Source of the DNA: Kiloniellales bacterium
GTDB lineage: Bacteria; Pseudomonadota; Alphaproteobacteria; Kiloniellales; JAKSBE01
Reading direction: 5' to 3'
DNA: 32,008 bases
NCBI GenBank assembly: GCA_022361275.1
Contig: JAKSBE010000454.1
Location: forward strand, 1-32,008
Shown one piece after another: positions 6,783 through 8,252 of the stretch (positions within the stretch are counted from its first letter, which is position 1; every line of letters begins with the position of its first letter). The notes below the pieces were generated by a model. That model was given only the letters and a program-made list of their open reading frames with translations, was not told the origin of the DNA and made no database searches. A program made the position numbers and the translations under genes.

Positions 6783-6810
6783 TTGGGCCGCCCGGCAGGC
6801 CCCTCTTCCG

Positions 6811-7482
6811 CTAGATCGCCACGGGCCATGGCTCCTGGCGGTAGGCGCTGTCCCAGAACATCCATTCGTAGCGGGCCGATCGCTTGAAGGCCGCGAGCAT
6901 GGCGTCACGGGTCACCGTCGCCGCCCCGGCGGCCGCCCGGTCGTTGATGCCGATCACCGCCTCGACCGCCTCGCCGAAGGCGGGGTCGCTGTAGGTATCG
7001 ATCCAGGCCTGGTAGGGATTGTCGGCGACCGCCTCGCCGGCGATGCGCTTGCCCACGTCCCAGTAGATCCAGAAGCAGGGGAGCACGGCGGCGGCCAGCT
7101 CCTCGTAGCTGCCCCGCTGCGCCGTGGCGAGCAGGAAGTTGGTGTAGCCGTAGCAGGTCGGCGAGGGCTCGGCCCGCGCCGCGTCTGCCGGATCGACCCC
7201 GAAGCGCTCCAGAAAGCCGCCGTGCAGGGCCCGCTCGACGACCAGCGCCTCCTGCGACGCGCGGGCGAAGAACTCGATGGCGCCGGGGTCGGGCGCCCGG
7301 GCCGCGGCGATCGCCAGGGCGCGCGCGTACTGCTCCAGGTAGAGGGCGTCCTGGATCATGTAGAACTGGAACCGCGGTTGCGACAGCGTGCCGGCCGCGA
7401 GCTCGCGGTTGAACGGCAGATCGAGAATGCCGCGGCGCAGATCGGCCGTTTCCCGCCAGGCCCACTCGCTGAAACGGGTCAT
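6811..7482 (-). CDS. tenA: TenA aminopyrimidine aminohydrolase (thiaminase II family)
   Basis: TenA hydrolyses aminopyrimidine breakdown products of thiamine, such as aminomethyl-HMP, so the pyrimidine can be salvaged for thiamine synthesis. The 223-residue product has the expected residues: Asp45 in the DALYLEQYAR segment, the CYGYTNFL segment at 110-117, nucleophile Cys136 in AVLPCFWIYWDVG, and Glu206 in YEWMFWD. These match the Asp44, Cys135 and Glu205 positions of Bacillus TenA. The ATG at 7482 has GGAG at 7491-7494, but that site sits in a small hairpin and overlaps an upstream ORF. A TPP riboswitch lies upstream, so expression should rise when thiamine is short. It is the only gene behind the riboswitch. 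It converges on divL with just 28 bases between, holding a weak GC hairpin (6785-6802). Confidence 0.95.
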   Translation of the reverse strand: MTRFSEWAWRETADLRRGILDLPFNRELAAGTLSQPRFQFYMIQDALYLEQYARALAIAAARAPDPGAIEFFARASQEALVVERALHGGFLERFGVDPADAARAEPSPTCYGYTNFLLATAQRGSYEELAAAVLPCFWIYWDVGKRIAGEAVADNPYQAWIDTYSDPAFGEAVEAVIGINDRAAAGAATVTRDAMLAAFKRSARYEWMFWDSAYRQEPWPVAI

Positions 7483-7544
7483 GGCAGGATCTCCGCCAGC
7501 GGAGGGCCGGCCGGCACCGATATCGGTTGAGCTGTGAAGTGCAT
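7479..7544 (-). CDS. Upstream ORF (21 codons) in the tenA leader
   Basis: A short reading frame starts at ATG 7544-7542 and ends with TGA at 7481-7479, overlapping the tenA start as ATGA. The 21-residue product begins MHFTAQPISV and is Pro/Ala-rich, with no recognisable domain. Its ribosome binding site is strong: AGGAAAGGGAG on the reverse strand at 7549-7559, five bases before the ATG. The overlap suggests that its translation is coupled to tenA. The frame and binding site are seen directly; that it is translated is inferred. It could be chance, since short frames are common in GC-rich DNA. Confidence 0.5.
   Translation of the reverse strand: MHFTAQPISVPAGPPLAEILP
7491..7504 (-). promoter_or_regulatory. 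Hairpin covering the tenA ribosome binding site
   Basis: A palindrome with 5-bp arms (7491-7495 with 7500-7504) and a 4-base loop includes the GGAG used by tenA (7491-7494). It lies inside the upstream ORF, so a ribosome translating that ORF would open it. The sequence is direct evidence; the function is inferred. Confidence 0.45.
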
Positions 7545-7547
7545 GAC

Positions 7548-7573
7548 GCTCCCTTTCCTACGCGACGGGAGCC
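7548..7573 (-). promoter_or_regulatory. Putative TPP riboswitch expression platform
   Basis: On the reverse strand, GGCTCCC (7573-7567) can pair with GGGAGC (7553-7548), which is part of the ribosome binding site of the upstream ORF. The same CTCCC can instead pair with GGGAGC in the aptamer's 3' side (7626-7621). That gives the usual arrangement of a translation-controlling switch. No U-run follows the hairpin, so a terminator mechanism is less likely. Pairings are seen directly; the switch is inferred. Confidence 0.5.
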
Positions 7574-7611
7574 GGGACCACGGGCCGCCGAAGGGCGGAA
7601 CGTCGGCCTCG

Positions 7612-7701
7612 GTCGCAACCGCTCCCTTCGCTGGCATGATCCAGATCAGGTTCTACGGGTCTGTTCTCAGCCCGCCGGCGGCGGACACCCCGAGTTGCGA
7701 C
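7612..7701 (-). promoter_or_regulatory. TPP riboswitch (THI element)
   Basis: The reverse strand carries the conserved thi-box core: ACTCGGGGTG near the 5' side, CTGAGA at 7670-7665, then ACCCGTAGAACCTGATC, CTGGATCATGCCAGCGAAGGGA split across 7650-7623. The closing P1 helix is perfect: GTCGCAAC (7701-7694) pairs with GTTGCGAC (7619-7612). Thiamine pyrophosphate binding to this RNA lowers expression of thiamine genes. It sits upstream of tenA in the same orientation, which fits TenA's salvage role. Confidence 0.95.
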
Positions 7702-7706
7702 ATCGA

Positions 7707-7737
7707 AGGATATGGGCCTGCGATCGCTGCCGATCAA
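7707..7737 (-). promoter_or_regulatory. Candidate promoter for the riboswitch-tenA transcript
   Basis: On the reverse strand, TTGATC (7737-7732) and TATCCT (7712-7707) are 19 bases apart. Each matches the sigma-70 consensus at 4 of 6 positions. Transcription would begin about where the riboswitch P1 helix starts, which is the main argument for it. The spacing is long, so the call is weak. Confidence 0.35.
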
Positions 7738-7773
7738 TTCCGCACGAGCGCCGGTTCTCCACTAGTACCTGTA

Positions 7774-8238
7774 CTACCTGATTGCGGGACCGGGGTCGGC
7801 CGAGGCCGCGTCGGCGAGCCAGACCCGCGCGTAGGGAAGCAGAGGCTTCGGCAAGGCGTCGGCGGCGAACCAGGACCAGGCCCGGCCTTCGTCCGAGCCG
7901 CGCAGCCTCCCCCCGGTCCGGCGGCAGGCGAAGACCGCGGTCACGAACTGGGTCCGGCGGCCGTCCGGAAAGCCGACCACCTGAAACGCCGGGTCGGAAT
8001 TGAGCGAGACCAGCCGCTCGATGCGCACCGCCAGCCCCGTCTCCTCCCTGACCTCCCGATGGAGGGCGGCGGCGGCGGTCTCGCCGCGCTCGACGTGGCC
8101 GCTCACCGGCGCCCAGCCGTCCCCGACCCGTCGGTGGTGCAGAAGGACGCGGCCCTCCGCGTCGTAGATGATGGCCGCGACGCCCGGCCGGACGTCGGTG
8201 ATCCCGTGATCGCTCTTCTGATGACTCTCCGAACCCAT
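7774..8238 (-). CDS. Nudix hydrolase
   Basis: Nudix enzymes hydrolyse nucleoside diphosphates linked to another group, often damaged or surplus nucleotides. The 154-residue protein has a complete Nudix box: Gly47, Glu53, then REVREETGL at 61-69, matching G-x5-E-x7-REUxEExGU. The surrounding fold is typical, with VRPGVAAIIYDAEGRVLL before the box and GRRTQFVTAVFAC after it. The substrate cannot be told from sequence. The start at 8238 is 14 bases after the stop of the ferredoxin-NADP reductase gene, so the two are probably co-transcribed; the binding site is weak (GGAT). The same open frame runs on upstream through the reductase gene, but that part is a shadow. Confidence 0.88.
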   Translation of the reverse strand: MGSESHQKSDHGITDVRPGVAAIIYDAEGRVLLHHRRVGDGWAPVSGHVERGETAAAALHREVREETGLAVRIERLVSLNSDPAFQVVGFPDGRRTQFVTAVFACRRTGGRLRGSDEGRAWSWFAADALPKPLLPYARVWLADAASADPGPAIR

Positions 8239-8252
8239 CCCGGGCTGATCCG

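Follow-up and report, generated by a model that had tools for sequence, protein, structure and literature searches.

A TPP riboswitch that may act on tenA through a coupled 21-codon open reading frame in a Kiloniellales bacterium

The TPP riboswitches of Escherichia coli thiM and thiC are ordinary translational switches that work by sequestration of the Shine-Dalgarno sequence (SD). A more indirect layout is found at the B12 riboswitch of Mycobacterium tuberculosis ppe2, where it was shown experimentally that expression needs translation of the upstream open reading frame (uORF) uPPE2 together with an AUGA overlap (PMC11260477). As described in PMC7652899, which cites Park et al. (2017), CsrA represses E. 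coli iraD through a coupled short ORF, idlP. Here we describe a locus on contig JAKSBE010000454.1 of a Kiloniellales bacterium (GCA_022361275.1), in which a 21-codon ORF lies between a TPP riboswitch and tenA. The whole 32,008-nt stretch that was analyzed is referred to as the window. We hold, with moderate confidence, that TPP acts as an OFF switch on tenA and that its signal is relayed through the 21-codon ORF.

The riboswitch, the short ORF and the start of tenA

The window contains a TPP riboswitch aptamer (RF00059) at positions 7604-7702 of the reverse strand (cmscan, 66.4 bits, E-value 3.9e-11), above the Rfam gathering cut-off of 54.3 for this family. It is the only Rfam RNA family in the window and agrees with the aptamer that the initial annotation had placed at 7612-7701. 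TPP binding and switching of expression by this aptamer are predicted from its sequence. Directly downstream and on the same strand lies tenA (6811-7482), which encodes a member of the aminopyrimidine hydrolase/thiaminase II family (PF03070, TENA_THI-4; E-value 5.1e-41) and is 74% identical to the tenA of locus L039. Judged by position only, tenA is the thiamine-related gene under the riboswitch. An intrinsic terminator was looked for and none was found, which agrees with translational control.

The pairing elements proposed in the initial annotation are all present, on the reverse strand. The anti-SD strand of the expression platform, CTCCC (7567-7571), sequesters the GGGAG at 7549-7553, which serves the 21-codon ORF as its SD. 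An alternative partner of CTCCC lies in the 3' part of the aptamer (GGGAGC, 7621-7626, with GGGAG at 7622-7626). The hairpin over the SD of the ORF (-13.6 kcal/mol) is present in the minimum-energy fold, and this SD is 0.00 unpaired in the fold of the free leader, an occlusion that lies within the range of shuffled GC-rich sequences (P about 0.18). When CTCCC is forced onto the aptamer 3' side, at a cost of 6 kcal/mol (-113.0 vs -119.0 kcal/mol for the free fold), the SD of the ORF opens in part, from 0.00 to 0.32 unpaired.

The annotated 21-codon ORF itself (MHFTAQPISVPAGPPLAEILP; 7479-7544, reverse strand) starts at +59 past the aptamer, is preceded by AAAGGGAG and has its own SD inside the platform hairpin. 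In the TPP-thiM-tenA operons of Pelagibius, thiM starts at +59/+60 past the aptamer and is preceded by a similar CTCCC/GGGAG hairpin. Across the order, the SD of a distal first gene is mostly paired (mean unpaired below 0.3) in 76 of 103 leaders. The platform hairpin of the window stands directly at the start of the ORF, about 55 nt upstream of the SD of tenA. Since the SD hairpin is found at the ATG of the ORF and +59 is the slot of a first gene, the riboswitch target is the 21-codon ORF. The expression platform belongs to this ORF and not to tenA, and tenA occupies the position of a second gene.

The TGA stop codon of the ORF overlaps tenA by 4 nt in an ATGA (7479-7482, reverse strand), again as annotated. 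Inside the ORF, a small hairpin (7491-7504, reverse strand; CTCCG-CTGG-CGGAG; -5.7 kcal/mol) covers the GGAG of tenA at 7491-7494 and is present in the minimum-energy fold. This hairpin, which the initial annotation had described as a cover on the binding site of tenA, does exist, but its occlusion is not beyond chance at this G+C content (P = 0.175, about 0.18). The GGAG precedes the ATG of tenA by 8 nt, a good spacing, and tenA may therefore not depend strictly on the ORF. With the ORF held single-stranded, as if occupied by a ribosome, the SD of tenA passes from 0.21 to 1.0 unpaired. In the same static fold the AUG of tenA pairs elsewhere (0.01 unpaired), so that the model supports an opening of the whole start region only partly.

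In the proposed relay, binding of TPP would close the aptamer, CTCCC would pair with the SD of the ORF, and the ORF would stay untranslated. Without TPP, CTCCC could pair with the aptamer 3' side and the ORF would be translated. Its ribosome would open the small hairpin over the SD of tenA and terminate at the ATGA overlap, and tenA would then be translated via termination-reinitiation or local re-recruitment. A role for the peptide is improbable; what would matter is the act of translating the ORF. We infer translation of the ORF, the dependence of tenA on this translation and the direction of switching. A relay through the coupled ORF is the simplest reading of the locus, plausible rather than demonstrated for tenA. 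The two-step control put forward in the initial annotation is strengthened by a platform that sits at the ORF and by the recurrence of the layout described below, and weakened by a tenA hairpin at chance level and by the GGAG that tenA keeps for itself.

Short overlapping ORFs in other leaders and their possible origin

We assembled 144 TPP leaders from 61 genomes of the order. Loose uORF criteria yielded many doubtful cases, for example ORFs starting inside the aptamer, and a strict rule was therefore adopted: an ATG at least 30 nt past the aptamer, an SD of at least 4, a length of 8 codons or more, out of frame, and a stop located between -2 and +8 relative to the first start of the gene. 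Five leaders including that of the window have this layout. Leader L187 (genome G027) has a 16-codon ORF with the SD AGGAGG upstream of thiO, joined to it by a ATGGCTGA overlap. Leaders L201 (G004) and L281 (G021) both have a 24-codon ORF that overlaps thiO in a TAATG. In L234 (G027), a 13-codon ORF precedes an ABC permease gene and, provided that the permease starts at the GTG, overlaps it in a TAGTG; an alternative start, ATG, lies 18 nt further on. In genome G027, two TPP riboswitches thus have a short ORF with its own SD behind them. As L201 and L281 come from relatives, the number of independent cases is four, the window included. In all four leaders outside the window the downstream gene has no SD and is, therefore, plausibly dependent on coupling. 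The layout was found in none of 49 TPP leaders from other orders, 19 of which were long enough. We also observed a thiC-like start after the TPP riboswitch of leader L205 (G043, C367) that breaks off early and goes on in another frame, either a frameshift or a sequencing error.

The related pair in G004 and G021 allows a closer comparison. The ORF length of 24 codons, the offset of +65, the SD and the TAATG overlap are all kept, with no indel and with differences at 40 of 137 positions. The encoded peptides have diverged, with 8 identical residues among 24 and with 7, 11 and 4 changes at the three codon positions, and an intact ORF would be retained under random substitution with P about 0.1. 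Nothing here thus points to selection on the peptide, and for the ORF selection is no more than hinted at.

Both G004 and G021 lack thiC, which six sister species carry in the slot of the ORF, and the thiC-thiO junction is the same 1-nt TAATG overlap in two sister species (G034 and G046). Genome G027 lacks thiC as well, while thiM is missing from the source genome and its two sister species. These absences suggest that first genes were lost and left the short ORFs as scars, with the start belonging to the riboswitch and the stop-start junction retained. A similarity of the G004 and G021 ORFs to thiC was looked for and none was found.

A scar may have no role in control, and the 21-codon ORF could be a leftover of a lost first gene (such as thiM or thiC), the GGAG of tenA accounting for most of the translation of that gene. 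Its start exactly in the thiM slot, the lack of thiM in the source genome and two sisters, the thiC slot and shared thiO junction of the G004/G021 pair, and the GGAG 8 nt before the ATG of tenA all fit such a leftover. However, the 21-codon ORF bears no clear trace of thiM. Compared with the C-terminus of Pelagibius thiM, it ranks in the top 2.5% of the background for one species and at 33% for the other, and similarity to thiM N-termini or to the tail of thiD was not convincing. The tenA of the window is not close to that of Pelagibius either (62% identity vs 74% to others), and remnants without coupling are not expected to keep stop-start overlaps above chance. We regard an inert leftover as rather unlikely. 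Scar origin and relay function are compatible, and both can be true. In a wider and tentative view, control by TPP riboswitches of this order could repeatedly have passed to a short ORF without conservation that took the place of a lost first gene (thiC or perhaps thiM) and would relay the vitamin signal via a stop-start overlap to a next gene whose SD is absent or occluded.

Chance expectation and genomic context

The 21-codon ORF could also have arisen by chance, with the riboswitch acting directly on tenA, be it by sequestering 7571-7482, by mRNA decay or by Rho. At the single locus the numbers leave room for this. Dinucleotide shuffling of the 121 nt that separate the aptamer from tenA gave an ATG ORF with an SD, 8 or more codons long and overlapping the tenA start, in 3.1% of cases, and in 10.5% if GTG and TTG were allowed, and neither hairpin goes beyond chance. 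Taken alone, the ORF therefore has an only modestly low chance probability, and a single locus is weak evidence. What goes beyond chance is the recurrence in other leaders: the strict rule selects five of the 144 leaders vs 0.26 expected, with a maximum of three in 300 shuffles, a comparison to be read as a guide and not as a pre-planned test, since the first cases were already known when the rule was framed. The platform hairpin also argues against a chance ORF, as it lies about 55 nt upstream of the SD of tenA and at the start of the ORF, as in the other translational leaders of the order. We consider a chance ORF with direct control of tenA improbable.

The riboswitch, the ORF and tenA share an insert with a neighbor. 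Upstream of the aptamer lies a NUDIX hydrolase gene (7774-8238, reverse strand; PF00293), which is likewise absent from the sister species. Two genomes of the same genus (G001 and G002) are 88-89% identical to the window on both flanks, and in them the end of the histidine kinase gene (6782) joins the end of the oxidoreductase gene (about 8262) either directly or with about 74 nt in between; the same close spacing of both genes is seen in G050, which belongs to another family. This empty site identifies the NUDIX-riboswitch-ORF-tenA segment (6783-8252, reverse strand) as an insert of about 1.47 kb, which among the genomes compared is present in the source genome only. A misplacement of this segment in assembly or binning, for which the 615 contigs and 9.3% estimated contamination of the source assembly might speak, is scarcely credible given flanks that meet precisely at the empty site of the sister species and an insert GC content (0.707) equal to that of the window (0.704). 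Relatives of the NUDIX gene (71-72% identity) are found in G045 and G049 with no tenA beside them, and the tenA tree yields no supported placement that would point to the source of the insert.

The source genome has six TPP riboswitches. They stand before thiC, a thiO-like gene, an ABC transporter ATPase gene, two thiY-like HMP transport genes (with a TenA-like gene next) and, in the window, the ORF-tenA pair. Except for thiC, the genes outside the window were named from reading the sequences and not by a family search. The two thiY-like loci (L002 on C508 and L005 on C383) are similar to each other, each with an HMP-binding protein gene followed by a TenA-like gene, so that at least three genes of the TenA family appear to lie under TPP riboswitches in the source genome. 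Elsewhere in the order tenA is rare: two Pelagibius genomes carry it, downstream of thiM in an operon with a TPP riboswitch. Several other Alphaproteobacteria have tenA after thiD, as the last gene of a thiM-thiE-thiD-tenA operon. None of the loci checked has an aptamer directly before tenA (80 GTDB tenA loci, the lower-ranked of them checked by a sequence pattern of the aptamer core only; 61 genomes from the order and 385 from the class), and no orthologous TPP-ORF-tenA leader was found among relatives in the data searched. The alignment of related tenA leaders that the initial annotation had suggested thus has no material to work on in these data.

Comparison with known systems

Compared with E. 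coli thiM and thiC, the window has the same aptamer and the same logic, with the difference that the sequestered SD is there the metabolic gene's own. The TPP-thiM-tenA operon of Pelagibius is a further parallel. Its platform is located at the same distance from the aptamer, tenA is the second gene and, in P. litoralis, has a 4-nt overlap (GTGA) with the first, but this first cistron is a full thiM instead of a 21-codon ORF. If the relay operates as proposed, the annotation of riboswitch control to the nearest long gene would overlook a relay that is translated, and a systematic search for short ORFs behind riboswitches would be worthwhile. It would also offer a route by which a riboswitch operon outlives the loss of its first gene, with a token ORF carrying the signal: the switch, the start codon and the stop-start junction would be retained after the gene itself has gone.

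The initial annotation had called the layout unusual, and it is indeed uncommon, although it has precedents in M. tuberculosis (PMC11260477) and in the CsrA/iraD system (PMC7652899). A literature search that lacked most subscription journals turned up no account of a coupled ORF of this sort behind a bacterial TPP riboswitch, and the only bacterial riboswitch relay of this type in the literature searched is the B12 case of M. tuberculosis. The idlP-iraD pair resembles the window in that the regulator acts only on a short, slightly overlapping ORF, from which translational coupling carries the control over to the gene; the regulator there is a protein and not a riboswitch. The ppe2 leader, the nearest precedent, shares with the window a riboswitch that acts on a short uORF whose stop overlaps the start of the main gene (AUGA). 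Expression of the main gene proceeds there via termination-reinitiation, as established by experiment, whereas the corresponding step in the window is predicted from sequence. Both systems further differ in their ligand, which is B12 for ppe2, and in the main gene, since ppe2 has no SD while tenA has a GGAG within a hairpin. The layout of the window is thus a TPP-based version of an already known coupled-uORF control, in which TPP as the ligand class is new.
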